Source: Planctomycetota bacterium
GTDB taxonomy: Bacteria; Planctomycetota; Phycisphaerae; FEN-1346; JAACEH01
DNA length: 15,133 nucleotides
Direction: 5' to 3'
NCBI GenBank assembly: GCA_016935955.1
Contig: JAFGPY010000089.1
Coordinates: forward strand, 1-15,133
The notes under the pieces are model-generated. The model made no database searches and was not told where the DNA came from. It was given only the letters and a program-made list of their open reading frames with translations. The position numbers and the translations under genes were made by a program. How positions within the stretch are numbered: the stretch's first letter is position 1; each line of letters opens with the position of its first letter. Shown here one piece after another: positions 1-15,051 of this stretch.

Positions 1-2145
1 AAGGACAAGGGCCGCAAGTACCTGGTCGTCGGCGAGGGGCTGCACCTGACCGACGACGCCCGGGTCTTCTGCCTGGACGTGACCGCCAGCGAGCGCGAGC
101 GCGACGGCGTCAAGCTCTGGTCCTACCGCACGGGCAGCCACGTCGAATCGTCGCCGTGTGTCGCGGGTGGCAAGGTCTTCATCGGCGCCGGCGACGACGG
201 GCTCTATTGCTTCGCCCTCGACGGCGACGGCCAGGGCAACGCCAAGGTGCTCTGGCACTTGCCGGGCCCCAGGAGCGAAGGCGTCGCCGAAGGGGCGACC
301 GTCTATCCCGACTGCGAGACTTCGCCGGTCTACTACAAGCCCGAAGGCGCCGACAAGGGCGTGGTCTGCTTCGGCCTGGGCATCGGCGGCCACGCGGTCG
401 TCTGTGTGGACGAGGACGGCGCCGAGCAGTGGCGCGTCGAGGCCCCGTACCCCGTCTTCGGCAGCCCGTCGATCGCCGACGGCAAGATGTACGTCGGCCT
501 GGGTCACGGCGACTTCGTCAATACGGCCGAGCAGGTGCAGAGCAACCTGCGGGTCAAGTTGAAGGAGCAGGGCAAGAGCGAGCAGGAGATCGAGGCCGAG
601 GCCTCGAAGATCTATCCCGTCGGCGAGGTCTGGTGCATCGACCTGGCCACGCACGCCGTGGACTGGAAGGTCCCCGTGGGCCGCGTGGTGCTCGGCTCCG
701 TGGCCGTGGACGGCGACTTCATCTACTTCGGTTCACGCGACGGGCAGCTCTACCGCGTGACGACCGACGGCAAACAGGTCCGCAAGTGGAATGCCCACGC
801 CCCGATCATCACCTCGCCGTCCGTGGCCAAGGACCACGTCTACATCGTGACGACGGCCGGCGACCTGTACGGCCTGGACAAGAAGACCATGGAGATGACC
901 TGGAACGTCTCGCTGAACAGCGAGGTGTTCAGTTCTCCGGTCGTGGCCCGTGGGCACGTCTACGTCGGCACGACCGCCAACGGACTGATGTGCGTCGGGC
1001 AACCGAGCGGGCAGCAGAAGACCGCCGGGTGGCCGGGCTCGCTTGGCGGGCCGGGCGACTCCGGATGGATCGACGGCAGCCTGTTGGCCAATCGCGGCGG
1101 CTACGCGTGGGGCTACGTGGGCGAGGCTTCGGGCGACGGGCAAACACCCGCGCCGCCGACGATCAAGGCTCCTGCGGCCGCACTGGGCAACGCCCTCTTC
1201 GTCGGCCTCAGCCGCGACGGCAAGCACGGTCTGGCCAAGCTGGCGTGCGGCGACGATCTGGGCGACGGCGCCGCCGTGAAGCAGCACTGGTTCGTCGAGT
1301 GCGCCAACCCGATCAGCCTGTCGGCCGCCGCTTCGGAGGCGGCCGTCTTCTTCGTGGACGGCGCCATGGGCGACAGCAACCGCGCCCTGCGGTGCGTCGA
1401 TCCGGCCGGCGGCAACGTTCTGTGGCAGCATCCGGTGGCGTCTGATGCCGGCGGGCAGATCGTCCTCGGCGGCGACAACCTTCTGGTCGCCGACACGGCC
1501 GAAGGGCTGACCTGCCTGGACATTTCCTCGCCGGCCGCAAAGACAGTGCGCTGGCAGGCCAAGGTCGGCTCCTGCGTCGGCATGGCCTTGCCGATTGACG
1601 GCGTGGTGATGACCGTCGTGGCCAATCCGGCGCAGTGGATCGTGCTGGACGGTGTGGACGGTTCGGTACTGCTGCGACGCCCGTTGCCTTCGGCGCCGAC
1701 GACGGGACCGGTGTACGCCTCCGGCCGCACGTGGATCGGCCAGGGCGACGGGCTTATCGGCTGCAGTCTGCAAGCGGGCGAGGCCGACGTGAAGGTGTCG
1801 TGCGGCAGCGTGGCGGGATCGCTGGCCACGGGCGGCGACCGCCTGGCCTGCAAGACGGCCGACCGGGCGATTGTCGTCATCGACACGACGACGGGCAAAG
1901 AGGTGGTTCGCATCGACGACGCCCTGGGCGACCTGCCGCCGATGCTGACCGACGACGCGCTGCTCTACGTGGCCGAAGGCGCCATCCGCTATTACGATCT
2001 GAAGCTGAACGAGGGCAGCCAGTGGGCGATCATCCGCAGTTCGTTCCCGGGCAACCTGACGTCGCCGATGATCATGGTCGATTCGCATGTGTTCTTTGCA
2101 ACGGATAAAAAGGGACTGGTATGCATGAAACCAAGGAAGCGCTGA
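1..2145 (+). CDS. PQQ-like beta-propeller repeat protein, 5' end missing
   Basis: The frame is open from base 1, so the true start lies outside the window; 714 codons are visible. The protein is built from repeated blades of the form 'SSPCVAGGKVFIGAGDDGLYC', 'GSPSIADGKMYVG', 'TSPSVAKDHVYIVTTAGDLY' and 'SSPVVARGHVYVGTTANGL'. These are the PQQ-binding-like (BamB/quinoprotein type) beta-propeller signature. The length allows two propellers, with a Gly/Pro-rich linker near codons 350-395. A charged helical insertion sits near codons 173-208. No PQQ-dehydrogenase catalytic motif or CxxCH haem site is visible, so a binding or scaffold role is more likely than an oxidoreductase. Any signal peptide would be upstream of the window. 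The last 25 bases overlap the phosphotransferase gene, so the two are probably co-translated. The fold is confident; the function is unknown. Confidence 0.85.
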   Translation, partial: KDKGRKYLVVGEGLHLTDDARVFCLDVTASERERDGVKLWSYRTGSHVESSPCVAGGKVFIGAGDDGLYCFALDGDGQGNAKVLWHLPGPRSEGVAEGATVYPDCETSPVYYKPEGADKGVVCFGLGIGGHAVVCVDEDGAEQWRVEAPYPVFGSPSIADGKMYVGLGHGDFVNTAEQVQSNLRVKLKEQGKSEQEIEAEASKIYPVGEVWCIDLATHAVDWKVPVGRVVLGSVAVDGDFIYFGSRDGQLYRVTTDGKQVRKWNAHAPIITSPSVAKDHVYIVTTAGDLYGLDKKTMEMTWNVSLNSEVFSSPVVARGHVYVGTTANGLMCVGQPSGQQKTAGWPGSLGGPGDSGWIDGSLLANRGGYAWGYVGEASGDGQTPAPPTIKAPAAALGNALFVGLSRDGKHGLAKLACGDDLGDGAAVKQHWFVECANPISLSAAASEAAVFFVDGAMGDSNRALRCVDPAGGNVLWQHPVASDAGGQIVLGGDNLLVADTAEGLTCLDISSPAAKTVRWQAKVGSCVGMALPIDGVVMTVVANPAQWIVLDGVDGSVLLRRPLPSAPTTGPVYASGRTWIGQGDGLIGCSLQAGEADVKVSCGSVAGSLATGGDRLACKTADRAIVVIDTTTGKEVVRIDDALGDLPPMLTDDALLYVAEGAIRYYDLKLNEGSQWAIIRSSFPGNLTSPMIMVDSHVFFATDKKGLVCMKPRKR

Positions 2146-4907
2146 GCGGATCGCGCATGATCTACTTCTTCGGCGACAGTACGTGCGAGGGAGATCCGAA
2201 GCGCAAGGACATTCTGGGCGGCAAGGGTTCCAGCCTGGCCGCCATGAGCTGCGCGGGGCTGCCCGTACCGCCGGGATTCACGATCGCGATTCCCTGTTGC
2301 CGCCATTACCACGAGCACAACGGCCACTGGCCCGACGGGCTCGAGGGCGAGTTGCGGGCCTACATGGCGCGGCTGGAGAAGTGCACGGGCCTGGTCTTCG
2401 GCGAGGGGAAGACCCCGTTGTTGGTCTCGGTCCGCAGCGGCGCCGCCCAGTCAATGCCCGGCATGATGGACACGATTCTGAATTGCGGTCTGCATCCCGG
2501 CCTGGCCGCGCACGTGGCCGACAAGGCCCGGTTCTGGTCGGTCTACGCCGCATTCATCCAGCAGTTCGCCAACACCGTGGCCCACATTCCGATCCCGGCC
2601 TTTGACGAGGTGGCCGACGGGCTGGCCCAGAAGGCCGACTTCGAGCAGGCCATGGCCGAGGCCTACATCGGCCTCTACGAACGCGAGTCGGGCAAGCGGT
2701 TTCCGACGACGGCCTGGGACGCCCTCTGCCAGTGCGTCAATGCCGTCTTCGAGTCGTGGAACAACGAGCGGGCCAACATCTATCGCAAGTCGCACGGCCT
2801 GGAGAATCTCGAAGGCACCGCCGTCAACGTGCAGTCGATGTTCAACTCGCGCGTCTCGGGCATCGCCTTCACGGCCAACCCCGCGAAGCCGTCGGCCGAC
2901 GAGATCGTCATCGAGAGTTCCTACGGCCTGGGCGAATCGATCGTCTCGGGCGACGTCACGCCCGACCGTTTCGTGCTGGACTCCAAGACGCTGGCCATCA
3001 AGGAGACCGCCCTGGGCCGCAAGGACCACGTCATGACCGGTCTGCAGGCCGACAGCGAGGACGAGACGTTCGATCCCGATGCGGCTTCGCTGACGGAGGA
3101 GCAGGTGCTGGAGGTCGGGCGGATCGCCCTGAACGTCGAGAAGTACTTCGGCTTCCCCGTGGACATCGAATGGGGTCTGGCCAACGGGCGGTTCTCGCTG
3201 CTGCAATCGCGAGCCGTGCGCGGCCTCGACGTGGCTCGTGACGCGGAGGTCGGTCGCCTGGAGGAGATCGCGCGGCTGAAGGAGATCGTGGCCCGGTCGC
3301 GCTCCAAGAGCAAAGTCTGGATCGTCCATAACCTGGCCGAGACGCTCGAAAAGCCTAAGCCGCTGACCTGGGACATCATCCGCGGCTTCATGAGCGGCAA
3401 CGGCGGTTTCGGGCAGATGTACAAGGACTTCGGTTACCGGCCGAGCGAGCAGGTCTGCGAAGAAGGATTCCTGGAACTGATCTGCGGCCGCATTTACGCC
3501 GATTCGGACCGCACGGCCGCATTGTTCTGGGAGGGCATGCCCTTTGAGTACGATCACCAGGAGGTGCTGGCCAACCCGCGTCTGCTGGAGGCGGCGCCGA
3601 CGAAGTTCGAGGCCGACCGCGCGGACGAGAAGTTCCTGCTGCGTTTGCCCGGGACGCTGATGGCCATGCTGCGATCGAGCCGCACGATGAAGAAGGCCCG
3701 CCGCAACGCGGTCCAGGTCTTCGAGCACGAGCAGTTGCCGACCTTCCGCGAGTACCTGAGCGAGAAGCGTGAACAGAACCTCTGGGAGATGTCGACCGAG
3801 GCCGTCATCGCCGAGCTGCGCGACCGTATCCGTCGCGTGCTGACCGATTTCGGTAAGGAGTCGCTCAAGCCGGGTTTCTTCGGCGGCTGCGCCCGGGCCG
3901 AACTCGAAACGCTGCTGACGCAGATTCTCGGGCCGATGGAAGGCGAGAAGATGACCCAGGTGCTGACCTCGGGCCTGGAGGGCGATTCGACCGTCGAGCA
4001 GAACGCCATGCTCTTCCGCGTCGCCCAGGGCAAAGACACCATGGACGAGTTCATCAACCGCTACGGACACCGTGCCGTCGGCGAGATGGAACTCGCCAAT
4101 CCGCGCTGGCGCGAGGACGACAGCTACGTGCGGCAGATTGTCGAGAACCAGGACGTCGAGGAGGACCATTCCCCCGCGACCCTGCACAAGCGCAATGCCG
4201 AGCGCCGCGAGGAGACCTTGCGACAGCTGCCCGAACTGCTGGCCGAATCGGGCGGCAGTTCGATGCGCGAGGAAGTCGAGGATCTGGCTCGCGAGGCCCA
4301 GGTGCTGCTGCCGTACCGCGAGATCGGCAAGCATTACCTGATGATGGGCTACGAGCTGATTCGCCAGGCGATTCTCGAACTGGGCAGCCGCTGGACGATC
4401 GGCGACGACGTGTTCTACCTGTATTTGGAGGAGTTGCCGCTGTTCGAGAGCGACCGCGAGCGGCTGGTATCGCTGATCGGCAAACGCAAGGTCCGCTGGC
4501 AGTCGGCCCAGCGGCTCGATCTGCCCGACGTGGTCGGCAGCGAGGAACTGGACGTCCTGGGCCTGCCGCGGCAGATCGAGGCAGCCAGCGAGATGGACGC
4601 CCTGTCGCTGTCGGCCGGCATCTTCACCGGCACAGCGCGGATCGTCTTCGATCCGGGCGACGCCAAGGACCTCGGCGACTCGTGCGTCCTGGTCTGCCCG
4701 AGCACCGACCCGAGTTGGACGGCCCTGTTCACCAAGATCAGGGGCCTGATCGTGGAGCGCGGCGGCGTGTTGTCGCACGGGGCCATCACGGCCCGCGACT
4801 TCAGCATTCCGGCCGTCGCCTGTCCGAGCGCGACGCAAATCATTCGCGACGGGGCCAAGGTCCGCGTGGACGGCGACCGCGGTCACGTGACGATTATCGA
4901 GGAGTGA
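2121..4907 (+). CDS. PPDK/PEP-synthase-like phosphotransferase lacking the PEP/pyruvate barrel
   Basis: This 928-residue protein belongs to the dikinase/rifampin-phosphotransferase superfamily. Residues about 14-120 resemble the PPDK nucleotide-binding domain: 'GGKGSSLAAM', 'GLPVPPGFTI', 'LLVSVRSGAAQSMPGMMDT' with Arg105. Residues about 230-365 look more like PEP synthase or RPH: 'SGIAFTANP', 'YGLGESIVSGDVTPDRFVLD', 'DIEWGLANGRFSLLQSRAV'. A mostly helical region of about 430 residues follows. The protein ends in the swivelling phosphohistidine domain, 'GGVLSHGAITARDFSIPAV', with His886 the expected phosphocarrier. PPDK and PpsA continue into a TIM barrel that binds PEP/pyruvate; here the protein stops 42 residues after that His. 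The order therefore matches rifampin phosphotransferase, and the middle region should bind the acceptor. ATG 2121 has an AGGGA site 5 bases upstream; ATG 2157 is an alternative start. The acceptor is unknown, and antibiotic resistance should not be assumed. Confidence 0.88.
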   Translation: MHETKEALSGSRMIYFFGDSTCEGDPKRKDILGGKGSSLAAMSCAGLPVPPGFTIAIPCCRHYHEHNGHWPDGLEGELRAYMARLEKCTGLVFGEGKTPLLVSVRSGAAQSMPGMMDTILNCGLHPGLAAHVADKARFWSVYAAFIQQFANTVAHIPIPAFDEVADGLAQKADFEQAMAEAYIGLYERESGKRFPTTAWDALCQCVNAVFESWNNERANIYRKSHGLENLEGTAVNVQSMFNSRVSGIAFTANPAKPSADEIVIESSYGLGESIVSGDVTPDRFVLDSKTLAIKETALGRKDHVMTGLQADSEDETFDPDAASLTEEQVLEVGRIALNVEKYFGFPVDIEWGLANGRFSLLQSRAVRGLDVARDAEVGRLEEIARLKEIVARSRSKSKVWIVHNLAETLEKPKPLTWDIIRGFMSGNGGFGQMYKDFGYRPSEQVCEEGFLELICGRIYADSDRTAALFWEGMPFEYDHQEVLANPRLLEAAPTKFEADRADEKFLLRLPGTLMAMLRSSRTMKKARRNAVQVFEHEQLPTFREYLSEKREQNLWEMSTEAVIAELRDRIRRVLTDFGKESLKPGFFGGCARAELETLLTQILGPMEGEKMTQVLTSGLEGDSTVEQNAMLFRVAQGKDTMDEFINRYGHRAVGEMELANPRWREDDSYVRQIVENQDVEEDHSPATLHKRNAERREETLRQLPELLAESGGSSMREEVEDLAREAQVLLPYREIGKHYLMMGYELIRQAILELGSRWTIGDDVFYLYLEELPLFESDRERLVSLIGKRKVRWQSAQRLDLPDVVGSEELDVLGLPRQIEAASEMDALSLSAGIFTGTARIVFDPGDAKDLGDSCVLVCPSTDPSWTALFTKIRGLIVERGGVLSHGAITARDFSIPAVACPSATQIIRDGAKVRVDGDRGHVTIIEE

Positions 4908-4911
4908 GGCT

Positions 4912-5751
4912 ATGGGTTCATTTCTTGACACGTTGAACACCGCGCTGATGTCGATCGGCGATCCGCTGCTGGGCTGGCTGCTGAAGATGCCGCGCAGCGC
5001 GGCCCTGTTCATTATCGCCATCGGCACGGCGCTGATCCTGACCGTGGTGCGCCTGTGGACGACCAACCAGGATCTGCTCGGCCGCTGCAAGAAGGACAAG
5101 GACCGGTTGAAGCAACTGACGCGCGAGGCCAAGAAGGCCGGCGACAAGGACGCCGTGGCCCGCTACCGGGCGACCGTCGGGCAGATCGGCATGAAGACCA
5201 TGAAGGCCGAGGGCAAGCCGCTGCTGGCCTCGATCGTGCCGATCGCCATCCTGGCCTGCTGGGCCTGGGCGCGGATCGCCTACGTGGCCCCGACGCCCGG
5301 CGAGCCGGTCGGCGTGAGCGTCTACTTCCCCCCGGCGGCCATCGGTCACCTGGTGCACGTCGTGCCGCAGGACGGCCTGGAGGCCGAGACCGGCTGGATT
5401 CAGAAGGTGGTCCAGGACGTGGACCCCGACGGCAACGTGGTCAACAACGGCGTGGCCCACTGGCAGATCAAGGCCGCCCGGCGGGACGGGCCCTACAAGC
5501 TGGAGTTCCGCTACGCCGGCAAGACGTTCACCAAGGACCTGATCGTCGACGGTCGCAAGTACGCCGAGCCGATCACGTTCTACGAGGACAACGCCCCGGC
5601 CATCTGCGCCGAGCTGAAGATGGAGGAGTTCAAGCTCTTCGGCATCATCCCGGGTCTGCCGTCGATCGGCATGCAGGCCTGGATGGTGGGCTACCTGGTG
5701 ATCGTCCTGCCGTTTTCGTTCCTGCTGAAGCCGATGCTGCGCATCCACTGA
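4912..5751 (+). CDS. EMC3/TMCO1 (DUF106) family membrane protein, Oxa1/YidC superfamily
   Basis: The 279-residue protein has the DUF106/EMC3 layout. A first membrane helix lies at about 29-48 and is followed by 'RLWTTNQDLLGRCKKDKDRL' and a long charged, probably coiled-coil segment (about 50-100). A second helix lies at about 104-124 and a third at about 255-274, ending 'LPFSFLLKPMLRIH'. Between helices 2 and 3 is a soluble, beta-rich stretch of about 125 residues, which should face outward if the coiled coil is cytoplasmic. Archaeal and eukaryotic members usually have only a short loop there. Family members are membrane-protein insertases or related factors; activity here is inferred from family membership. 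The start has a GAGGAGTGAGG ribosome site. The gene begins 4 bases after the phosphotransferase stop, so it belongs to the same operon. Assignment rests on topology and the helix-coiled-coil-helix pattern. Confidence 0.75.
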   Translation: MGSFLDTLNTALMSIGDPLLGWLLKMPRSAALFIIAIGTALILTVVRLWTTNQDLLGRCKKDKDRLKQLTREAKKAGDKDAVARYRATVGQIGMKTMKAEGKPLLASIVPIAILACWAWARIAYVAPTPGEPVGVSVYFPPAAIGHLVHVVPQDGLEAETGWIQKVVQDVDPDGNVVNNGVAHWQIKAARRDGPYKLEFRYAGKTFTKDLIVDGRKYAEPITFYEDNAPAICAELKMEEFKLFGIIPGLPSIGMQAWMVGYLVIVLPFSFLLKPMLRIH

Positions 5752-5803
5752 TGCCGCCGTGGCGGTGATCGGACATTCGGATGTTCTCGTGCTGACTGAC
5801 GAC

Positions 5804-5839
5804 GCATCGCCTGCCACGGATGGCCGTGACGGGCGACGC
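5804..5839 (+). terminator. Imperfect 16-bp hairpin after the three-gene operon, possible terminator
   Basis: Bases 5804-5819 pair with 5824-5839 around a 4-base loop (ATGG), with two mismatches and one G-T pair. The stem is GC-rich. It is followed by CCTTGTTGG rather than a clear T tract, so it is a poor intrinsic terminator. It could be a terminator, an mRNA-end stabiliser or a leader structure for the lipoprotein gene, whose ribosome site begins 18 bases downstream. The remaining bases of 5752-5868 show only two smaller hairpins, near 5754-5767 and 5771-5786. Confidence 0.45.
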
Positions 5840-5868
5840 CCTTGTTGGACTTACATGAGGAGGCAGCG

Positions 5869-8103
5869 ATGATCCGACGAACGCTGGTTCTGGTCTTACT
5901 GTCCACGGCCGCCGCAGGGTGCCGGCCGGTCGCCCAATGGCCCGATCACGTCATCATGGGCCCGCACACCAGCAGCGTCTCGATGACCGAGGCGACCGTC
6001 GTCTGGGTCACGCCGCCCGGCGCCCAGACCACGGCCGGCCTGTCCCCGAATCAGGGGTTTGAATCCGCGGCGATCAAAGCCGTGCTCGCCGATTCGCCCA
6101 TCAGCGATCGGCCGGAGCGCGTGCACACGCTGAAGCTGTCCCGGCTGATTCCCGGCGCGACGTATCGCTACTTCGTTACCTGCGACGGGCAGACCGTCGA
6201 GGGCCTGTTCCGCACGGCGCCGCCCCGGTGCGCGAAGACGCCCGTTCGGTTCGTCGCCTACGGGGACACGCGGACCTATCCCGAGAGGCACCGCCGTGTC
6301 ATCGACGCCATGGCCCGACAGTTGCCGATCGACTTCGTGCTGCACACGGGCGACCTCGTCGAGAACGGCGATGTCTGGACGAACTGGCCGCGGGACTACT
6401 TCGGCCCGGCCCGCGCGATGCTGGCCCTGTCGACGTGGTGGACGGTGCGCGGCAACCACGAGGGCCAGGGACCGCTGTATCGCGACCTGCTCGCGCTGCC
6501 GGACAACGAGCTGTACTACAGCTTCGATTTCGGCAATGTCCACTGTGCCATGCTCGACAGCTACGTCAACGCGGACCGGTTGCCCGAGGGGCGCGCCGAC
6601 CCGGAGATGGTCCGCTGGCTCGAGCACGACCTGGCGTCCACGAAGGCCGACTGGATCGTCGTCGCCTATCACGAGCCGACCTTCAACATCGGCGGCCACG
6701 GCAGCACATGGGGCCAGTCCGACGTGCTGCCGATCCTCGAGAAGTACGGCGTCGACATCGTCGTGACCGGGCACAGTCACCTTTACGAGCGCTTCAAGCC
6801 GATCGGCCCGCGCGGCGGCAAACCCATCATCCACATCGTCTCGGGCGGCGGCGGGGCGCCGACCTACCCCACGCGGCCGAGTCCGATCCTGGCCCAGGCG
6901 CATTCCACGATCCACTTCTGCCTGTTCGAGGTTTGCGGCAATCATCTGGAGATGACCGTCTTTGACGACTCCGACCGGGTCATCGACAGGCTTTCGCTGG
7001 AGAAGTCGGCGACGCGATCGGTCGGCGTGACCGTCGACGAGTCGGCCGACCCCGCAAGCGGCCTGGCAAGCATCGGCCGGCTGGACGTGGTCCGCTCGCC
7101 CGGCCGCTACCAGGACAGCGTCATGGAGAAGATGATCGAGACCTCCGAGGCCATTGACATGGCGTTCCTGGAGTCGCCGCGACTCTCCGTGGAATACCGC
7201 CGCGTGCCCGAGGCGCAGCGGGACATGACGGTTCATGTCACCATGCAGGACCGTCTGCCGCCGGACGCCGTGGTGCGGTTCACGACGGCCGCCGAGAGCG
7301 GCTGGACGGTCGAGCCTGCTGAGTTCTGGGTCGCCGACGAGCCGTTCGCCCTGAAGGTGCAGCCGCCGGCCAATCTGAAAGTCGGCAAAGGTCGCATCCA
7401 GCCGTCGTTGCGGCTCGGTGTCGCGGTGACCTATCGCGGCAAGACGTACGGGCCGGAGGACCGCACGCCGTCACTGGCTCCGGCGACGACTCGTCTGCTG
7501 ACCCCCGAACCCGTGGCCAGCCTTGTGCGGCGCGCTGCGACGGACATTGTGGTTGACGGGCGGCTGGACGAATGGGCGGCCGTGGCGCCGCTGACAATCC
7601 CGTCCAAGGGCGCCGCCGGCACGATCGCGAAGATGGCCTGGGGGCCGGACGGCCTGTACATAGCCATGAACGTGCGCGATTCGACGATCAAAAGCGACCC
7701 CGGCCGGGTCTGGCAGGCCGACGGCATGGAACTGTTCATCGAGGGCGACTACGCCCGCAGTGACGATGCCCAGAAGAATCCCGCGGCGACGAAGATGTCG
7801 CTCTACCCGCAGCCGGACAAGGGACCGGGTGCGGGCGGAATCGACATGTCCTACGGCCGCTTCAAGGACTCGCCGCAAGTGATCGCCGCGGCCTGGCAGC
7901 CCGTGTCCGGCGGCTACACGATGGAGATCCTGATCCCCACCCGCGTGCTCCGTTCGGCCGCCATGGCGGCGGGCACGAAGATCGGGTTCCACTACGTGCT
8001 CTACGACGACGGGCGGGCGATCGAGAGCTTCGCCGACACCAGGGGCAAATCCGGCGTCTGGCGGACGGGGCTGCACTGGGGAGCGGTGCAACTGGTTAAT
8101 TGA
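5869..8103 (+). CDS. Lipoprotein metallophosphoesterase (purple acid phosphatase-like) with CBM9-like C-terminus
   Basis: The start is ATG 5869, with GAGGAGG 5 bases upstream; a TTG at 5842 lies before that site. The 744-residue product opens with a lipoprotein signal, 'MIRRTLVLVLLSTAAAGC', with Cys18 the expected lipidated residue. Residues about 30-120 form a fibronectin-like domain as found in purple acid phosphatases. The calcineurin-like catalytic domain follows: GDTR at 132-135, GDL at 161-163, GNHE at 195-198, 'YHEP' with His268, and 'GHSHLYERF' starting at 301. These are the di-metal ligands in family order. Residues about 560-744 ('DIVVDGRLDEWAAV', 'WGPDGLYIAMNVRD', 'DGMELFIEGD') match the CBM9-like domain common on exported planctomycete enzymes and may bind carbohydrate. 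It probably removes phosphate from extracytoplasmic phosphoesters, perhaps while attached to polysaccharide. The substrate is unknown. Confidence 0.88.
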   Translation: MIRRTLVLVLLSTAAAGCRPVAQWPDHVIMGPHTSSVSMTEATVVWVTPPGAQTTAGLSPNQGFESAAIKAVLADSPISDRPERVHTLKLSRLIPGATYRYFVTCDGQTVEGLFRTAPPRCAKTPVRFVAYGDTRTYPERHRRVIDAMARQLPIDFVLHTGDLVENGDVWTNWPRDYFGPARAMLALSTWWTVRGNHEGQGPLYRDLLALPDNELYYSFDFGNVHCAMLDSYVNADRLPEGRADPEMVRWLEHDLASTKADWIVVAYHEPTFNIGGHGSTWGQSDVLPILEKYGVDIVVTGHSHLYERFKPIGPRGGKPIIHIVSGGGGAPTYPTRPSPILAQAHSTIHFCLFEVCGNHLEMTVFDDSDRVIDRLSLEKSATRSVGVTVDESADPASGLASIGRLDVVRSPGRYQDSVMEKMIETSEAIDMAFLESPRLSVEYRRVPEAQRDMTVHVTMQDRLPPDAVVRFTTAAESGWTVEPAEFWVADEPFALKVQPPANLKVGKGRIQPSLRLGVAVTYRGKTYGPEDRTPSLAPATTRLLTPEPVASLVRRAATDIVVDGRLDEWAAVAPLTIPSKGAAGTIAKMAWGPDGLYIAMNVRDSTIKSDPGRVWQADGMELFIEGDYARSDDAQKNPAATKMSLYPQPDKGPGAGGIDMSYGRFKDSPQVIAAAWQPVSGGYTMEILIPTRVLRSAAMAAGTKIGFHYVLYDDGRAIESFADTRGKSGVWRTGLHWGAVQLVN

Positions 8104-8244: not shown

Positions 8245-8280
8245 TCGGCTCGCTGTCCCGATAGGCTGTTGCTGGGGTGC

Positions 8281-8307
8281 CATGGTCTGGCCGCAGGCCA
8301 GGCCATG
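8281..8307. repeat. Near-perfect 12-bp palindrome with GCA loop, possible dispersed repeat
   Basis: CATGGTCTGGCC (8281-8292) and GGCCAGGCCATG (8296-8307) pair completely apart from one G-T wobble, around a 3-base loop. There is no T tract on either side. The block GCTGTTGCTGGGGTGC lies just before it. A GC palindrome of this kind in a non-coding gap looks like a dispersed repeat unit; only one copy is present in the window. Confidence 0.45.
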
Positions 8308-8339
8308 AAGACCGTTCATCACGTGCCGGCGCCCATCGC

Positions 8340-8358
8340 GGTCAAGCTTCGCTTGGCC
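8340..8358. repeat. 8-bp palindrome, possible second half of a repeat element
   Basis: GGTCAAGC (8340-8347) pairs with GCTTGGCC (8351-8358) around TTC, with one G-T wobble. The arms share the GGCCA/TGGCC theme of the palindrome 33 bases upstream, so both may belong to one repeat element. Confidence 0.3.
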
Positions 8359-8391
8359 ACGACTCCCGCCGCATGTTATCCCGATCGGTTG

Positions 8392-8420
8392 TTGCCCAAC
8401 CGGGAGTCCGCGTGTATCCT
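8392..8420 (+). promoter_or_regulatory. Possible sigma70-type promoter for the methyltransferase-prenyltransferase pair
   Basis: TTGCCC (8392-8397) and TATCCT (8415-8420) are separated by exactly 17 bases, and each matches 4 of 6 consensus positions. Transcription would begin near 8427, about 50 bases before ATG 8479. This is weak evidence. Confidence 0.25.
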
Positions 8421-8478
8421 CGTGCCTGCAGGACGGGGCACACGTTGCGGCCCTTGCGTGCGTATCGGCGGGCACACG

Positions 8479-9369
8479 ATGGACCGAACCGGCAATCCAC
8501 AACCGAGGCGACGGCGCTGGGCGGCTCTCGGGCTGCGCGTGGCGCGACTGTCGCTGCGCCCGGCCCACGTCACCGACCACTTGGTGTCCGACAGCTACGA
8601 CCACATCGCGTCGGGTTACGACGATGTCTGGACCGACCATATGCGGCACCTGTCGGTCGAGATGCTCGACCGCCTGGCTCCTCCGCCGGACGCCGAGTGC
8701 ATCGACCTGACCTGCGGCACCGGGTTCGTCACGGCCGAACTCGCGCGGCGTTCGGGCCGCAGGGCCGTCGGCGTCGACCGCTCCGCCGGCATGCTGGCCG
8801 TCGCCCACGAGAAGCACGGCGCGTCGTGCGACTTCGTCCAGGCCGACGTGCTCGCCTTTCTGCGCTCCCGTCCGGCCTCCAGCGCCGACGTCGTGACGTG
8901 CGGCTGGGGCCTGGGATACTCGCGGCCCTGGGCCGTCATCGGCCAGGCGGCCCGCATCCTGCGACCGGGCGGCCGCATCGGCATCATCGACAACTCCCTG
9001 TTCTCGCTGGCCGGCGTGCTCTGGTGCTCGCTGGTGACCTTCGCCGAGCGGCCCGAGGCACTGCAACACGTGATGAAGGTCCGTTTCCTCCCGTCGAGCC
9101 TCCAACTGGCGACGATCATGCGGCTGCGCGGCTTTGCCGTGGACCGGCGATGGGACGGCGACAAGACGTACCACGTCGCCGACGGGCGCGCGGCCATCGC
9201 TCGGCTGACCGCGACCGGTGCGGCCGCGGGATTCGAGTCCGCCGTCGTCCCGGAAGCGCGCGAAGACGTCTTCGCGCGGTTTGCAGAGGTCATCGAGGAG
9301 CGCCGGCGAACCGATGACGGCATTCCCATCACGCACCGCTACCTTGCAGCCGTGGGCCACAGACGATGA
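8479..9369 (+). CDS. Class I SAM-dependent methyltransferase
   Basis: The 296-residue protein has the Rossmann methyltransferase motifs. 'YDHIASGYDDVW' (about 40-51) is the usual lead-in helix. Motif I is 'DLTCGTGFV' (76-84), the acidic motif II residue is Asp100 in 'AVGVDRSAGML', and 'FVQADVLAF' and 'ARILRPGGRIGIIDNS' (from about 158) follow. The substrate-binding C-terminal half has no signature I recognise. ATG 8479 is the best available start, preceded only by a weak GGCGGG; the frame is open to 8269, so the N-terminus is uncertain. The stop overlaps the next start as ATGA, implying coupled translation with the UbiA-family prenyltransferase. Methylation of a prenylated lipid or quinone head group would fit, as in MenG/UbiE pathways. 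This is inferred from context, and the protein is not clearly UbiE. Confidence 0.85.
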   Translation: MDRTGNPQPRRRRWAALGLRVARLSLRPAHVTDHLVSDSYDHIASGYDDVWTDHMRHLSVEMLDRLAPPPDAECIDLTCGTGFVTAELARRSGRRAVGVDRSAGMLAVAHEKHGASCDFVQADVLAFLRSRPASSADVVTCGWGLGYSRPWAVIGQAARILRPGGRIGIIDNSLFSLAGVLWCSLVTFAERPEALQHVMKVRFLPSSLQLATIMRLRGFAVDRRWDGDKTYHVADGRAAIARLTATGAAAGFESAVVPEAREDVFARFAEVIEERRRTDDGIPITHRYLAAVGHRR

Positions 9370-10199
9370 TCGCACTGCTCAGACTCTGTCGCTTCTACTA
9401 CGCCTTGCCCATGGCCGCGGCCTACCTGCTGACGGTCTACTACGCGCGCGGCGGCCGCATGGACGGCCGCTGGTCCAACGACCTGATGTCCGCTGCCGCC
9501 CTGGCCCTGGTCATTGCGGCGGGCTACGTGCTGAACGACGTGCTGGACTACCACGTCGACCGGCTCAACGCTCCGCGACGGCCGCTGCCTTCGGGCGGCG
9601 CGAGTCGCGGTGCCGCCATCGCCTGGGGCGGCGCGCTCATGGTCGCCGGGCTCGTCGTGGCGTCGCAGTGCCGGCCGTGGTTTCTGGAGGGACTCGTCGG
9701 CGTGGCGGCGGGCTTGGTGCTCTACGACGTCTTCAGCAAACGCCTCGGACCGCTCAAGCAGGTCCTCGTCTCGCTGCTCATGACGAGCATCTATCCGCTG
9801 GCCGTCGCTCAGGCAGGCTGGCCCGTCGGCTCGCGGGCCGGATCGCTGGCCTTCTTCCCGGCGTGGCTGCTGCTGACGAGTTTCGGCTACGAGATTCTCA
9901 AGGACATTCGCGACACCCGCGGCGACATGGCGGCCGTCGAGCGTCCGCTGCCCGTCCAGCGCCGGCCGCGCGCGTGGCGAACCGTCTCGCGCGCAGCCAT
10001 TCTTGTGGCCGCGCCGCCGCTGGCGGGGCCGTGGCTGTACGGTTGCGGGTGGATCTACCTGGTGGGCGCGGCGGCGGCCGTCGTCCTGGCGGTCGTCTCG
10101 ACCTTTCTTCCGGTTCGCCGGGCGCTGCGCGTCCTCTACGCCGAGTGCTTCCTGGTCGGCCTGGCGGCAACGCTTGACGTCATCGTGCTCGGGTTCTGA
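9366..10199 (+). CDS. UbiA-family prenyltransferase
   Basis: The 277-residue protein consists of about eight or nine hydrophobic helices and carries both Asp-rich UbiA motifs. The first is 'NDVLDYHVDRLNAPRRPLPSG' without its last residue (Asn57, Asp58, Asp61, Asp65), on the first conserved loop. The second is 'YEILKDIRDTRGD' (Asp180, Asp183, Asp187). These bind the Mg-diphosphate of a polyprenyl donor in the membrane. The 'NAPRRPLPSG' ending and the 'EILKDIRDTRGD' motif resemble the chlorophyll synthase/DGGGP synthase branch more than UbiA proper, so the acceptor could be a lipid or glycerol-phosphate derivative; this subfamily guess is tentative. No separate ribosome site is evident, and initiation is probably coupled through the ATGA overlap with the methyltransferase. 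Its last 20 bases overlap the end of the oppositely oriented radical SAM gene. Confidence 0.88.
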   Translation: MIALLRLCRFYYALPMAAAYLLTVYYARGGRMDGRWSNDLMSAAALALVIAAGYVLNDVLDYHVDRLNAPRRPLPSGGASRGAAIAWGGALMVAGLVVASQCRPWFLEGLVGVAAGLVLYDVFSKRLGPLKQVLVSLLMTSIYPLAVAQAGWPVGSRAGSLAFFPAWLLLTSFGYEILKDIRDTRGDMAAVERPLPVQRRPRAWRTVSRAAILVAAPPLAGPWLYGCGWIYLVGAAAAVVLAVVSTFLPVRRALRVLYAECFLVGLAATLDVIVLGF

Positions 10200-11376
10200 G
10201 CAGCCTGCGGTATCCCTCGGGCAGCGGGGCGTCGAGGTCGGCCGGCGGGCAGAGCCTCTCGCTCGCGTCGCGCGGCAACGGCAGGACCGCCCCCTCAGTT
10301 GACAGTTGCCGCCCGACGTGCCGCATGAGGCAACCGCGCCGCGGCACGGGGAAGAACCTCTCCATGCGAGCCCAGACGTCGGCCAGCGGCTCGGCGGTCA
10401 CGTTGCCGAAGCCCAGCGGCGTCAGGTCGCACGGACAGACCTCGCCGCCGGCATCGATGAACAGGTGGTGGTAGCCCGCACCGCAACCGAACATCTCGTC
10501 GGACTCCAGGTAGGCGAAGCAGGCGACGGCCGGCCCGCCGCGACGGCGGTTCCGCCGCACGTGGAACTCGGCCAGGCGACGATGCTCGTCGGGCGAGAGC
10601 ATGGCCGCGGCGCAACCGGCCAGTCCGCCCGTGGCCACGGGAGCCAGAACGCGGAGTTCGCCGACGTTCCATCTTGCCGCCAGATCGTAGATGCGATCGA
10701 GTTCGCCGGAAGCCATCTTCTCGCGGAAGCCGACGGTCGAGAGGGCCGCATAGAGTCCGGCCGCATGGCAGGCCTCGACGGCCGCCGCGGCCTCGGCAAA
10801 CGATCCCTCACGTTGCCGCACGGCGTCGTGAGTCGCGGCGTCCGACGATTCGATGCCCACGGTCACGCAGTCCACGCCGGCCTCGGCCAGGCGGTGGGCC
10901 CGCGCGGCGTCCAGCCCGCAGCCGGTCGTGAAGACGATCGTCGCCATCTCGGGCTTGGCCGCCGAGGCGATGGATTCCAGGTCGTCGCGGAGCAGCGGCT
11001 CGCCGCCGGTCAGCCCGAGCGTGCACGCGCCGAGGGCCTTGACTTGGGCGACGACGTCGAGCGTCTGTTGCGGCGACAGGGCTGCATTGCGGCGATGCTT
11101 GTAGCTGCAATGGCCGCAGCGGCAGGGACATTTCGCCGTGACCGCAAGGTAGACGGAGAAGGGCACACGGCGGCGGGCGGCAACGGCGCGGCGGAAACGG
11201 TCGAAGGCCGGCGACGGGTACGGCGGAAAGAAGGTGTTGATGCGGATCTGCCCGGCGAAGCGGTGCGGCTTCTCATTGCGCATCCGTCGCCACAGGTACC
11301 ACAGGTGCCCGAGAGGCGCGCGGCCAAGCAGTGGAGCGAACATCGGCAGAATGGCTGTTCGAGATGCCTGCCTCAT
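10180..11376 (-). CDS. Radical SAM protein with SPASM-like C-terminal cysteines
   Basis: The 398-residue product has the radical SAM cluster motif CxxxCxxC in 'AKCPCRCGHCSYKH' (Cys83, Cys87, Cys90), followed by 'LTGGEPLLRDDL' (GGEP 124-127), 'FTTGCGL' and 'VGIESSDAATHDAVR'. The C-terminal part, 'FGCGAGYHHLFIDAGGEVCP' with 'CDLTPLGFGNV' (Cys298, Cys314, Cys316) and Cys349, resembles a SPASM/twitch auxiliary-cluster domain. The N-terminus 'PPYPSPAFDRF' precedes the barrel. The start at 11376 overlaps the stop of the upstream membrane-protein gene as ATGA; the frame is open far upstream to 11772, but that sequence is the antisense of the membrane gene. SPASM enzymes often modify peptides, while related proteins act on lipids. 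No precursor peptide is visible here, and the UbiA/methyltransferase neighbours point towards lipid or quinone tailoring. Its 3' end runs 20 bases into the UbiA gene. Confidence 0.87.
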   Translation of the reverse strand: MRQASRTAILPMFAPLLGRAPLGHLWYLWRRMRNEKPHRFAGQIRINTFFPPYPSPAFDRFRRAVAARRRVPFSVYLAVTAKCPCRCGHCSYKHRRNAALSPQQTLDVVAQVKALGACTLGLTGGEPLLRDDLESIASAAKPEMATIVFTTGCGLDAARAHRLAEAGVDCVTVGIESSDAATHDAVRQREGSFAEAAAAVEACHAAGLYAALSTVGFREKMASGELDRIYDLAARWNVGELRVLAPVATGGLAGCAAAMLSPDEHRRLAEFHVRRNRRRGGPAVACFAYLESDEMFGCGAGYHHLFIDAGGEVCPCDLTPLGFGNVTAEPLADVWARMERFFPVPRRGCLMRHVGRQLSTEGAVLPLPRDASERLCPPADLDAPLPEGYRRLLRTRAR

Positions 11377-11894
11377 GGCTCTTCGGTCGCCTCGCAGTCG
11401 GGAAGTGCGCCGCCAATGCGTCTGGCTGCCGTAGCCAACAGGAGACCGGCAATTGTGCCGAGAATCAATCCGGCAGGAATGGCGAAGATCTGGCCGGCTA
11501 TTATGCCGTCGGGCCTGAACCGTCCGATGGCGATCATCAGTCCCGCGTGCAGGAACACGGCCGCTCCCATGGCGACGAGAAGGCTTGTGCCGACGCCCGG
11601 AAAGAGGTGATTCACTGCCCGTCCCGTCTTCTGAAGGTTTTGCCGCATGCAGCGCATCATGCGCACCGACCAGAGCACTCCCGCCGCAAGTCCGCCAACA
11701 GCGCCCAGAACCAAGCCGGTCTGAGTCGAAACCTTGGTGTCGTGTTCGGCCCAGTCTTCTGTGGGCTCCCATTCGCCTATGTCATACATGACCGCGGCCA
11801 ATGCTCCAAGTACTGCGCTAGCCGCACACGCGGCAAGGCAAACCAATACGATCACGGTCCATACGGCCACGGTGTTGACGGATGGACTCGGCAT
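11373..11894 (-). CDS. Four-helix membrane protein of unknown family
   Basis: I do not recognise this 173-residue protein. It has four predicted membrane helices: about 'VWTVIVLVCLAACAASAVLG' near the N-terminus, 'GLVLGAVGGLAAGVLW', 'VGTSLLVAMGAAVFLHAGLM', and 'GLILGTIAGLLLATAARRI' towards the end. Small-residue GxxxG patterns, which allow tight helix packing, are frequent. A polar loop 'WEPTEDWAEHDTKV' separates helices 1 and 2, and basic residues follow helix 2. ATG 11894 is chosen because GGAGGA lies 7 bases upstream and because a strong promoter at 11921-11949 would start transcription near 11914, after the alternative start at 11924. The stop overlaps the radical SAM start, so the pair is coupled and this protein may anchor or assist that enzyme at the membrane. 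The partnership is inferred. Confidence 0.7.
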   Translation of the reverse strand: MPSPSVNTVAVWTVIVLVCLAACAASAVLGALAAVMYDIGEWEPTEDWAEHDTKVSTQTGLVLGAVGGLAAGVLWSVRMMRCMRQNLQKTGRAVNHLFPGVGTSLLVAMGAAVFLHAGLMIAIGRFRPDGIIAGQIFAIPAGLILGTIAGLLLATAARRIGGALPDCEATEEP

Positions 11895-12026: not shown

Positions 12027-12035
12027 TGTTACTAT
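12027..12035 (+). promoter_or_regulatory. Extended -10 promoter for the toroid protein
   Basis: TGT-TACTAT has the TGn extension followed by a hexamer matching 4 of 6 positions. No good -35 box lies 16-18 bases upstream, as is often true of extended -10 promoters. Transcription would begin near 12042, just before GGGGAGG at 12048-12054. The ATG at 12034 lies partly within this -10 box and would not be in the mRNA. Confidence 0.4.
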
Positions 12036-12066
12036 GGTTGAGCGACAGGGGAGGCCGCGAGTCTTG

Positions 12067-13953
12067 ATGATTCACAGACCGAAGATCGGGTGGTTCGTTC
12101 GCACGGCGCTATGCGTCTTAGTCGTCGCGGTCGCGGCGGCGCTATGCGCTGCCCAGGAGCCGGCGTCCGGCGTCTGGTTTGACGACCTGGGCGAATCGCT
12201 CACGATCTCGCGCGATGATGGCAAGGCCTTAGTGGCCCAAATCCACGCTCGTCTTGCGGGCGATGGCGAGGCGAAGGACAAGGCCATTGCGTTGCCCGAA
12301 TCGCTGGCCGCGGACAAGACGCCCCGGATCGTGTTCCTTTCGTTGAGCGACGGCCAAACGGCAGCGCGGGTCGTTGTCGGAGCGGGGCAGGGGCTCAAGG
12401 CGGTAGTCGAAGCCGCACTGGCCGAGGCCGCGCCGCTCGTGGCCGCGGGGCTGAAACTTTGCTGGCTGAAGCTCGACATCGTGACGGGAGTCGAGAAGTC
12501 GGTAGACCTCGAACCGGCGACCGGGCGGCGCTTCGACCGCAGTCTCTACGGTCTGGCGTTCGACCGGCAGTCGCGGATTGCGTTCGTCCCCGAGCAACTC
12601 GTGGCCAACAATCTGGTCGACGAACTGGGCCGCCTGTGGGCCAACAACGTGAGCCGCTACCTGGAATCCGCAGGCGATCGCAAGGAGGCGTTCCTCGCGG
12701 TCTACGGTCGGCCGCAACTGAGCGGTTTCCTGTTCCAGACGCAGAGTTTCTTCTGCGACGGCACGCGGTCGCTTGCCCTGTATCGCGGCCATGCGGCGAG
12801 CGAGGAGATGCCGGACCTCGGCCCCGAGCGTCTGCTGGAGGCCTCGCGGCAAGCGGGCGCCTACTTCGTGCGGACGATCGACGACCAGGGACGCTTCGAC
12901 TACCTCTACCTCCCGGGCCACGACCAGGAACTCGACCGCTACAACATCCTGCGGCACGCCGGCTCCACGTATTCGCTGCTGGAGCTGTACCAGGTGGACC
13001 GCGACGAGGCGACGTTGAAGGCGGCCGAGCGGGCCGCGGACTACATTCTGAAGCACGTTGTGCCGACTCCGAGCAACGACGAGAGCATGCGGTGCATCGC
13101 CGAAGACGGGACCAGCAAACTCGGCGGCAACGCCCTGGCGATCATCGCTCTGGCCAAACACGTGGAGGTCACGGGCCGTCGCGACCACGTCGAGACGATG
13201 CAGCGACTCGGCCACTGGATGGTCAGCCTGCAGGACGCCGACGGGCAGTTTCAGCCGCACACCATGACCTATCCCGAGGGCCGCGGGACCGGCTTCGTGT
13301 CGCAGTACTATCCCGGCGAGACGCTGCTGGCCCTGGTGCGGTTGCACGGCGTCGACGGGCAGGCCGCCTGGCTCGATGCGGCGGAGAAGGGGGCCAAGTG
13401 GCTGATTACCGTCCGCGACGGTCAACTGGCCGACTCCCAACTCAGTCACGATCACTGGCTGCTCTACGCGCTGAACGAACTGTACCGATGCCGGCGCAAC
13501 GAACTGTACCTGAAGCACGCGCAGCGGCTGGCGCGGGTGATCGTGGCCGCACAGATGGTCCAGGCCGACTACCCCGACTGGGTCGGCGGTTACCTGCGGC
13601 CGCCGCGGTCGACCTCGACCTCGACGCGGAGCGAGGGACTTTGTGCCGCGTGGTGGCTGGAGCGCGACTTCGGCCAGGCCGAGCAGGCCCGGGCCATCCT
13701 CGACGCCGCCCGCCGCGGCGTGGCCTTCCAGTTGCTGAGCCAGTTGCGGCCCGAGAGCGTCCTGTACGCCAAGGACCCGCAACGGTCGCTCGGAGCGTTT
13801 CGCCGCAGCCTGACCAACATGGAGGTCCGCATCGACTACGTGCAGCACAGCATGTCGGCGATGCTGGCCCTGCGGCGAATTCTCCTTGCTGCGTCCGATA
13901 ACGCTTCGGGCACGCCTCCGCAGGGCGAGCCGCAAGGCCTTCCACGGGAATAA
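12067..13953 (+). CDS. Secreted protein with alpha/alpha-toroid (six-hairpin-like) C-terminal domain
   Basis: From ATG 12067 the product is 628 residues. It opens with a signal peptide, 'MIHRPKIGWFVRTALCVLVV' continuing to 'AALCAAQ', with cleavage probably after LCA. GGGGAGG lies 12 bases before this ATG and 9 before an adjacent TTG at 12064; ATG 12034 is rejected because it has no ribosome site and sits in the likely promoter. Residues about 30-215 form an alpha/beta domain containing 'RIVFLSLSDGQ' and 'YGLAFDRQSRIAFVPEQL', distantly reminiscent of AMMECR1. Residues about 250-610 are repeated helical hairpins, for example 'YNILRHAGSTYSLLELYQ', 'LGGNALAIIALAKHVE', 'HWMVSLQDADGQF', 'YYPGETLLALVRLHG' and 'HDHWLLYALNELYR'. 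This is an alpha/alpha-toroid pattern of the kind seen in six-hairpin glycosidases, glucuronyl C5-epimerases and related enzymes. A polysaccharide-acting periplasmic role is plausible; no catalytic residue can be assigned. Confidence 0.72.
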   Translation: MIHRPKIGWFVRTALCVLVVAVAAALCAAQEPASGVWFDDLGESLTISRDDGKALVAQIHARLAGDGEAKDKAIALPESLAADKTPRIVFLSLSDGQTAARVVVGAGQGLKAVVEAALAEAAPLVAAGLKLCWLKLDIVTGVEKSVDLEPATGRRFDRSLYGLAFDRQSRIAFVPEQLVANNLVDELGRLWANNVSRYLESAGDRKEAFLAVYGRPQLSGFLFQTQSFFCDGTRSLALYRGHAASEEMPDLGPERLLEASRQAGAYFVRTIDDQGRFDYLYLPGHDQELDRYNILRHAGSTYSLLELYQVDRDEATLKAAERAADYILKHVVPTPSNDESMRCIAEDGTSKLGGNALAIIALAKHVEVTGRRDHVETMQRLGHWMVSLQDADGQFQPHTMTYPEGRGTGFVSQYYPGETLLALVRLHGVDGQAAWLDAAEKGAKWLITVRDGQLADSQLSHDHWLLYALNELYRCRRNELYLKHAQRLARVIVAAQMVQADYPDWVGGYLRPPRSTSTSTRSEGLCAAWWLERDFGQAEQARAILDAARRGVAFQLLSQLRPESVLYAKDPQRSLGAFRRSLTNMEVRIDYVQHSMSAMLALRRILLAASDNASGTPPQGEPQGLPRE

Positions 13954-13980: not shown

Positions 13981-14009
13981 TTGACATCCCGCGGCCAGGA
14001 TGAGAAACT
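13981..14009 (+). promoter_or_regulatory. Sigma70-type promoter with extended -10 for the aldolase
   Basis: TTGACA (13981-13986) is a perfect -35 box. After exactly 17 bases comes GAAACT (14004-14009), matching 3 of 6 -10 positions, immediately preceded by TGA, which fits the extended -10 TGn. Transcription would begin near 14016. This means the aldolase can be expressed independently of the toroid gene, which ends 27 bases before the -35 box. Confidence 0.45.
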
Positions 14010-14052
14010 ACCCGTTCTGTCGCCGCAAGCGCACTTCAGACAAGGGAGAGTC

Positions 14053-15051
14053 ATGGAACACGGCAAGAGCGAGTTGGCAAAGGGCACCTGGCTGACCTAC
14101 CGGCCGGACATCAAGGTCCTGGACTGCACGGTCCGCGACGGCGGGCTGATCAACAACCACATGTTCGAGGACGGTTTCGTCAAGGCCGTTTACGACTGCT
14201 GCGTCGAGGCCGGCATCGACTACATGGAGCTGGGCTACAAGGGCTCGGACAAGATCTTCTCCCGTGACGAATATGGCACGTGGAAATTCAGCACCGAGGA
14301 CGACATCCGTCGCATCGTCGGCGACAATCCGACCAACCTGACGCTCTGCGCCATGGCCGACGCCGAGCGAACGGACTACCACACGGACATTCTTCCCCGC
14401 GAGCAGAGCGTCCTGGGCATGATCCGCGTGGCCACCTACATTCACCAGATTCCCGTGGCTATGGACATGATCAAGGACGCCCACGACAAGGGCTACGAGA
14501 CGACCGTCAACCTGATGGCCGTTTCGGCGGTGCAGGAGCGCGAGTTGTTCGAGGCCCTGCAGACCCTGGCCAAGAGCGAGGTCGGCACGATCTACATGGT
14601 CGACAGTTTCGGCTCGTTCTACAGCGAGCAGATCCGCGATCTGACGCTGGCTTACCTGAAGGCCGTCGAGGGCACCGGCAAGAAGATCGGCATGCACATG
14701 CACAACAACATGCAATTGGCCTACGCCAACACGATCGAGGGCCTGATCCTCGGGGCCAGCATGCTCGACGCAACGATCAACGGCATGGGCCGCGGCGCGG
14801 GCAACTGCCCGATCGAACTGCTGCTGGCCTTCCTGAAGAACCCCAAGTTCCGGCTGCGGCCGGTGCTCAAGGCCATCCGCGACCACTTCCTGCCGCTCCT
14901 GGAGAGCCGCAAGATGGAGTGGGGCTACATGATTCCTTACCTCGTCACCGGCATGCTCAACCAGCATCCGCGTGCAGCCATGAAGTGGCGGGCCGGCGAC
15001 ACGCCCGACGACTACGTGGCTTTCTACGACCAGGTGGTCGAAGAAGACTAG
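14053..15051 (+). CDS. DRE-TIM family (HMGL-like) aldolase
   Basis: The 332-residue protein starts at ATG 14053, chosen because AAGGGAGAG lies directly upstream; the TTG at 13981 is part of the promoter. The barrel opens with 'VLDCTVRDGGLINNHMF', whose RDGG (Arg28, Asp29) replaces the DRE signature of isopropylmalate synthase and HMG-CoA lyase, as in 4-hydroxy-2-oxovalerate aldolases. Metal ligands His215 and His217 lie in 'GMHMHNNMQLAYANTIEG', and 'NGMGRGAGNCPIELL' gives the conserved glycine loop near the C-terminal end of the barrel. The expected reaction is metal-dependent C-C bond cleavage or formation with a 2-oxo acid or acyl-CoA. The RDGG...NN form is common in unassigned aldolases near polysaccharide genes. 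There is no acylating aldehyde dehydrogenase (DmpF/MhpF type) beside it, so a 4-hydroxy-2-oxovalerate pathway is not supported here. The substrate is unknown. Confidence 0.85.
   Translation: MEHGKSELAKGTWLTYRPDIKVLDCTVRDGGLINNHMFEDGFVKAVYDCCVEAGIDYMELGYKGSDKIFSRDEYGTWKFSTEDDIRRIVGDNPTNLTLCAMADAERTDYHTDILPREQSVLGMIRVATYIHQIPVAMDMIKDAHDKGYETTVNLMAVSAVQERELFEALQTLAKSEVGTIYMVDSFGSFYSEQIRDLTLAYLKAVEGTGKKIGMHMHNNMQLAYANTIEGLILGASMLDATINGMGRGAGNCPIELLLAFLKNPKFRLRPVLKAIRDHFLPLLESRKMEWGYMIPYLVTGMLNQHPRAAMKWRAGDTPDDYVAFYDQVVEED

Follow-up and report, generated by a model that had tools for sequence, protein, structure and literature searches.

A beta-propeller, an RPH-type phosphohistidine dikinase and an EMC3-like membrane protein in one recurrent planctomycete operon, with a natural dikinase-membrane protein fusion in a sister clade

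What could a predicted extracytoplasmic beta-propeller, an ATP-driven phosphohistidine enzyme and an Oxa1-superfamily membrane protein have to do with one another? The question is raised by the first 5,751 positions of a 15,133-nucleotide stretch of DNA from a Planctomycetota bacterium (contig JAFGPY010000089.1 of assembly GCA_016935955.1), the whole of which is referred to here as the window. An earlier note on this DNA had placed the three genes in tight order, the first two overlapping by 25 bases and the last two separated by 4. The coordinates bear this out, and the same −25/+4 spacing was found in the closest relative, locus L001 (also L052) of genome G001 (Phycisphaerae metagenome-assembled genome JAAYDY010000121.1), which carries the entire operon and is 80% identical to the window in the EMC3-like protein and 87% in the phosphotransferase, here called the dikinase. 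The features of the locus, with residue numbers in amino acids (aa), are as follows.

1..2145, + strand: BamB/PQQ-like beta-propeller gene, 3' 714 codons, the 5' end lying beyond the window (PF13360, 3e-34)
2121..2145, + strand: 25-base overlap of the propeller and dikinase genes, identical in L052, provided that translation begins at the ATG at 2121
2121..4907, + strand: gene of the ATP-dependent phosphohistidine dikinase of the rifampin phosphotransferase (RPH) type, 928 aa, ATG start (PF01326, 3e-57; PF00391, 3.1e-20; match to rifampin phosphotransferase)
2328..3227, + strand: ATP-grasp domain, aa 70–369 by profile, with R105, E350 and QxR within and K35 ahead of the domain
3258..4619, + strand: helical acceptor (middle) domain, counterpart of the rifampin-binding domain and query of the class-wide search
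4317..4331, + strand: R733-E734-x-x-K737 of the acceptor site; the Arg-Glu...Lys block of RPH aligns here
4677..4883, + strand: swivelling phosphohistidine domain, aa 853–921, by domain search
4776..4778, + strand: catalytic His886 in GGVLSHGA, by motif and alignment with RPH
4908..4911, + strand: 4-base gap between the dikinase and EMC3-like genes, identical in L052
4912..5751, + strand: gene of the EMC3/TMCO1-like membrane protein (archaeal-type Oxa1 superfamily), 279 aa, ATG start (PF01956, 28.3 bits; MJ0480, E 1.4e-5; model with predicted local distance difference test score, pLDDT, of 96.3)
4993..5061, + strand: first transmembrane (TM) helix of the EMC3-like protein, TM1, aa 28–50, with the nearly invariant R47 (alignment and model)
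5068..5211, + strand: Lys/Arg-rich helical hairpin between TM1 and TM2, aa 53–100, predicted cytoplasmic (alignment and model)
5218..5274, + strand: TM2, aa 103–121 (model)
5284..5646, + strand: beta domain between TM2 and TM3, aa 125–245, immunoglobulin (Ig)-like at aa 126–215, predicted periplasmic (model and structure comparison)
5677..5736, + strand: TM3, aa 256–275 (model)

Over window positions 1–6500, a promoter scan found none (0.5 expected), and terminator-like sites stood at chance level (3 against 2.9 expected).

A close-relative scan of genome contigs gave a single locus, and the wider set was taken from profile searches with L001/G001 as the centre. Using a profile of 53 homologues of the EMC3-like protein (alignment A1), we searched the phylum (392 genomes) and the class (397 genomes) of G001 and obtained matches in 22 and 29 genomes, respectively, weak family included. 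Wider stretches were then considered for 49 loci (L052–L100), comprising a strong set of 31, in which the genes are separate, and a weak set of 18. The dikinase adjoins the EMC3-like gene in 30/30 testable strong-set loci (L082 begins at a contig end), and a propeller gene also adjoins in 24 of the 25 that could be tested, L079 being the exception; clustering alone gave the propeller family in 21/31 loci, to which L100, L059 and L068 were added. Contig ends made the propeller untestable in L058, L066, L067, L070, L076 and L082 and, in the fused form described below, in L131, L133 and L150. Spacing is tight as well, with 26 of 30 dikinase-to-EMC3 junctions lying within −14 to +19 bases and 11 of 22 propeller-to-dikinase junctions showing a 4-base overlap (starts estimated from the nearest start codon). 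This linkage holds across a divergence in which identity with the window drops as low as 25% (EMC3-like protein) and 31% (dikinase), and in L056, where the order is propeller, EMC3-like, dikinase, all three are retained. The surroundings are shared far less: among 43 neighbour families in the 31 loci, trio included, an FG-GAP repeat protein occurs in 14 loci, the next family in 6, and 37 families in only one or two.

We also searched the class genomes with the middle domain of the dikinase alone (E <= 1e-10), and found matches in 34/397 genomes, of which 13 belong to the strong set, 18 to a second clade and three (G431, G613, G723) are weak partial or contig-end matches; further weak or partial matches, outside these counts, were seen in G001 (C26), G467 (C247, C409), G479 (C590) and G558 (C68). 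The strong EMC3-like family occurs in 13 class genomes, namely the 12 whose middle domains are closest and G738, which has a degenerate copy. The second clade comprises 20 loci, namely those of the 18 genomes together with a second G435 copy and one from G407, and here the dikinase and an EMC3-like module lie in one open frame of 1205–1485 residues where complete. The C-terminal 380 residues of the fusion show by eye an extra hydrophobic stretch, which would add a TM helix, followed by the EMC3-like layout (18/20 loci readable; L143 and L149 reach a contig end). When a profile of the fused C-termini was compared with A1, the match covered 243 columns (probability 97.3, E 1.8e-11); an unrelated pair gives a probability of 0.5. 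Since only 8 of 18 fused C-termini reach PF01956 at E <= 0.1 (best 0.0011), it is chiefly in profile comparison that the fused and separate forms can be seen to be related. Upstream of the fusion, the propeller gene was found in 16 of the 17 loci that could be tested (exception, L148). In a tree of 51 phosphotransferases, made by a quick search with support from the Shimodaira-Hasegawa-like approximate likelihood ratio test (SH-aLRT) only and including two long rows (L065, L084), the short L066 and six of unusual composition, one branch with SH-aLRT 100 splits the fused from the separate form, so that one fusion (or fission) suffices. An assembly error is an unlikely source, because many independent genomes carry the fusion. 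When a database was searched with the C-terminal region of the fusion, 11 proteins including the query were listed (7995 candidates scored), with PF00391 in 11/11 and PF01326 in 9/11; the two that are named came from a Phycisphaerae (the query) and a Thermoguttaceae bacterium. One genome, G407 (L082, L100, L138), carries separate and fused forms together.

The linkage kept across deep divergence, the reordered L056 with all its partners and the fusion of two of the three genes in a sister clade establish the three-gene unit proposed in the earlier note as real. The earlier note had named an absence of linkage in related genomes, or linkage to different partners, as a result that would refute it; the families came out linked, the dikinase in 30/30 and the propeller in 24/25 testable loci.

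The dikinase, described in the earlier note as an ATP-driven phosphohistidine enzyme, carries PF01326 and PF00391 in the order ATP-grasp, acceptor domain and C-terminal swivelling His domain, which agrees with that description and refines it to the rifampin phosphotransferase type. H886 and R733/E734/K737 align with the phosphate-carrying His and the Arg-Glu...Lys acceptor block of RPH, and the ATP-site residues Lys22 and Arg117 of RPH-Lm (reference residues from the excerpted text of PMC4844700) have counterparts in K35, by a weak aligned segment of 2.0 bits, and R105, by motif; the R105 column is poorly aligned in L083 and L100. Of the 48 copies readable at that site, 47 have His886; R-E-x-x-K is present in 48/51, with departures in L065 (Arg for Lys), L084 and L080. 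By its sequence, the window enzyme is thus an RPH-type small-molecule dikinase with intact key residues, predicted to phosphorylate a hydroxyl with conversion of ATP to AMP. Two loci bear degenerate enzymes, L080 (6882–10285, − strand) without the His domain and L084 (4565–8901, + strand) with Thr in place of His, and in both the first propeller domain is also missing while the operon is nonetheless retained. They are sisters on the dikinase tree, and their genomes, G475 and G738, belong to one family of 39 genomes, whose only further match is G288 (weak EMC3-like family); the correlated loss may therefore be a single event. An identity as phosphoenolpyruvate (PEP) synthase or pyruvate phosphate dikinase (PPDK) was rejected, as PF01326 and PF00391 were the only domains found, with no PEP/pyruvate-binding domain, and the His stands at 886 of 928 rather than centrally. 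The N-terminal part of the ATP-grasp domain seems to occur in PPDK-like and RPH-like versions in one and the same operon context (L056, L070, L083 and L100 versus the other separate-form loci), and the same split appears inside the fused clade, where L138 and L142 are PPDK-like by alignment start or motif. Homologues of the dikinase named from Kiritimatiellae and Verrucomicrobia were also found.

For the EMC3-like protein, the assignment to the EMC3/TMCO1 type made in the earlier note held, though only just: the window protein scores 28.3 bits against a PF01956 cut-off of 27.1. In A1, 45 of 53 proteins match PF01956 at E <= 0.001, and the archaeal MJ0480 is matched by the sequence profile. In the structure model, three TM helices are predicted, the first of them followed by a helical hairpin. 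By profile alignment, the arginine of TM1 corresponds to an invariant Gln in the fused form. The protein is not YidC, having no PF02096 match at E <= 0.001, and a separate PF02096 protein was found in 10 of 11 host genomes tested (separate form, 5/5; fused, 3/4; second operon type, 2/2), so the EMC3-like protein is not their only insertase.

The propeller of the window lacks its N-terminus, which is supplied by the full-length relative P0092 of L001/L052, where a two-helix membrane hairpin precedes two propeller domains predicted to be periplasmic. Its loop is positive in relatives wherever the helix pair was detected, except in L063, for which the script chose another pair, and this conserved hairpin supports the earlier suggestion that the propeller is probably exported. 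There are two propeller domains in the separate form and one in the fused form. Two specific identities were rejected on the 5'-truncated window copy, BamB (85.8 bits against the TIGR03300 equivalog cut-off of 285.2) and PQQ-dependent dehydrogenase (PF01011, 25 against 26.7 bits; TIGR03075, 31.4 against 480.05 bits). The FG-GAP repeat protein (P0093 family; Pfam run on P0093 alone), found in 14/31 separate-form loci, immediately precedes the propeller gene in 10 (L052, L053, L054, L056, L057, L060, L061, L064, L074, L077) and is likely to be an optional fourth member of the operon; the window begins within the propeller gene, upstream of which this gene would sit. The FG-GAP protein looks secreted.

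The 18 weak-set loci belong to a related family with other partners. The profile of 17 of their proteins (A4; the cut L086 was left out) matched A1 with probability 99.7 and E 9.7e-26. Two adjacent homologous proteins are encoded upstream of the EMC3-like gene in 16/18 of these loci, with one in L092 and none in L099, and all four proteins examined by Pfam (from L087 and L072) are PF01663 phosphodiesterases. The first-gene product has a membrane helix with the motif YIGPG in 14/17 loci (in L086 and L094 the protein is cut or partial, and L092 is without that gene), and the stretch after it contains Lys/Arg and no acidic residue in the first 20 positions; the leader ahead of the helix was inspected by eye in L087 and L072 only. 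By the positive-inside rule of membrane topology, this charged stretch should place the catalytic part on the cytoplasmic side. Among the second proteins of the 16 pairs, five have a twin-arginine translocation (TAT)-like motif, five a lipobox-like motif and six neither. Thus, the second phosphodiesterase is apparently exported and the first cytoplasm-facing, and both operon types seem to place one partner on each membrane face around the same hub. The second operon type spans L071–L073 and L085–L098.

What, then, might the trio do? Linkage, dikinase-hub fusion, key residues and topology signals were read from sequence in this analysis, and they incline us, with slightly better than even confidence, to one trans-envelope complex in which an Oxa1-type hub tethers the dikinase on one side of the membrane and the propeller lies on the other. 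The EMC3-like protein would form the membrane hub, running through TM1, a cytosolic hairpin, TM2, a periplasmic Ig-like domain and TM3, and the RPH-type dikinase would sit at its cytoplasmic side. ATP would phosphorylate His886, the swivelling domain would ferry the phosphate to the helical middle domain, and R733/E734/K737 would assist its transfer onto an acceptor hydroxyl. On the periplasmic side, the propeller, held by its own hairpin, would receive the product or its signal. In the fusion, if the hub has its N-terminus outside, the extra hydrophobic stretch would leave the enzyme on the cytoplasmic side. A physical complex of the three proteins is likely. A membrane-associated acceptor is plausible, because the enzyme would be tethered beside an Oxa1-type protein and its middle domain is homologous to a binder of a large hydrophobic molecule; a phosphorylated lipid or lipid-linked carrier is our leading guess, albeit one with a good deal less than an even chance of being right, and its movement across the hub is speculative. 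The excerpted text of PMC10491306 reports that protein insertases scramble lipids. Our boldest reading, put forward with low confidence, is that Oxa1 proteins of the EMC3-like type, otherwise known from archaea and eukaryotes, act in planctomycetes as transverse hubs rather than insertases, with phosphorylated lipids or lipid-linked carriers as their cargo. Each would stand between a cytoplasmic enzyme (dikinase or phosphodiesterase) and a periplasmic partner (propeller or exported phosphodiesterase), in an ATP-powered phosphorylate-and-pass machine of an undescribed kind.

Several observations weigh against the trans-envelope complex. The PF01956 score of the window protein barely clears the cut-off, and one genome of the fused type (G415) gave no PF01956 match at all. 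Foldseek and VIA-align with the EMC3-like model returned Ig-like, helical and other structures and no Oxa1-superfamily structure among the matches listed; membership of the superfamily rests on the Pfam and MJ0480 profile matches. The change of the TM1 Arg to Gln may mean that the groove differs between the separate and fused forms, and the two loci with degenerate enzymes may mean that the complex has a non-catalytic role. The distribution is patchy, and the unit is not generally required; L079 and L148 have room for a propeller, yet none adjoins. Finally, the characterised relatives of the dikinase act on soluble phenols and an antibiotic.

Other explanations were considered. The EMC3-like protein could be a dedicated insertase or chaperone for the helix pair of the propeller, and for the anchored phosphodiesterase of the other operon type, with the dikinase powering or regulating it. 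This would suit the archaeal-type Oxa1 superfamily, whose eukaryotic members insert membrane proteins (excerpts of PMC8887752 and PMC8675477), and both candidate clients are at hand in the propeller hairpin and the YIGPG helix. We nevertheless consider it unlikely, given that YidC is present in nearly all host genomes tested, that an insertase of this kind would have little reason to be covalently joined to a dikinase, that the TM1 arginine is not retained in the fused form, and that the large TM2–TM3 domain lies outside the three-helix core described in the excerpt of PMC8675477.

Still less probable in our judgement is a signalling system, in which an outside cue, sensed by the propeller with or without the FG-GAP protein, passes through the hub and is relayed by the dikinase to a protein or metabolite through His phosphorylation. 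The second outside partner directly upstream of the propeller in 10 loci and the joint loss of the first propeller domain and the active site in L080 and L084 would fit, but these two are sisters that may represent one event, the acceptor residues of a small-molecule dikinase are conserved, and beyond the trio and the FG-GAP protein no neighbour family recurs in more than 6/31 separate-form loci. Operons can also persist without physical contact, as is generally known, and the three proteins might simply be co-regulated while doing independent jobs; the fusion in the sister clade, the retention of the trio after reordering in L056 and its persistence where the distribution is patchy and the other neighbours are little shared make this very improbable.

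Compared with known small-molecule dikinases (RPH, HpeHI, CreHI, PpsAB), the window enzyme has an ATP-grasp half closer to PPDK and differs in being co-encoded with, or fused to, a membrane hub; with PEP synthase and PPDK it has the ATP-grasp and phosphohistidine domains in common, whereas its His domain is C-terminal. The EMC3-like protein has in common with the EMC3/TMCO1/DUF106 branch (MJ0480) a PF01956 match, three TM helices and a helical hairpin between TM1 and TM2; in contrast, it is bacterial, carries a beta domain of about 120 residues ahead of TM3, shares its operon with a dikinase or, in the related family, with phosphodiesterases, and coexists with YidC. The propeller has the PF13360 repeats of BamB/PQQ-like propellers and differs by the membrane hairpin seen in relatives, where BamB has a lipoprotein anchor. 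Each part comes from a known superfamily, and to our knowledge no known system has a phosphohistidine dikinase linked to a membrane protein of the Oxa1 superfamily. In the open-licence literature on EMC3/DUF106/TMCO1/Oxa1 in bacteria or Planctomycetes and on RPH, the gene set was not described among the matches listed; the earlier note knew no operon type to which the trio belongs, and the trio proves to be a recurrent operon type. Should the proposed complex prove real, the EMC3/TMCO1 branch would have in bacteria a role distinct from that of YidC and next to phosphate chemistry. Such a role would be relevant to the possibility that the grooves of Oxa1-type proteins move lipids too, an open question according to the excerpt of PMC10491306. 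Among the small-molecule dikinases, which have been little explored, the family forms a membrane-tethered branch, and the natural fusion, represented by proteins of the KGY99_07240 type, offers a single-chain target for structure and assay.

Downstream in the window, 90 bases 3' of the EMC3-like gene, lies a metallophosphoesterase gene with a CBM9 domain (5842–8103). It was rejected as a fourth member, since its family occurs in only 4 of 50 clustered sequences (49 loci and the window); related genes were also seen close to that of the EMC3-like protein in L082 and L083 (three copies). Further on are genes of a UbiE-like methyltransferase and a UbiA prenyltransferase with a 4-base overlap (8269–10199), possibly a quinone or lipid pair, a radical S-adenosylmethionine/SPASM protein (10180–11772, − strand), a protein with weak GH127-like matches below cut-off (12034–13953), and an HMGL-like aldolase that comes close to the 4-hydroxy-2-oxovalerate aldolases without reaching the cut-off (13981–15051).

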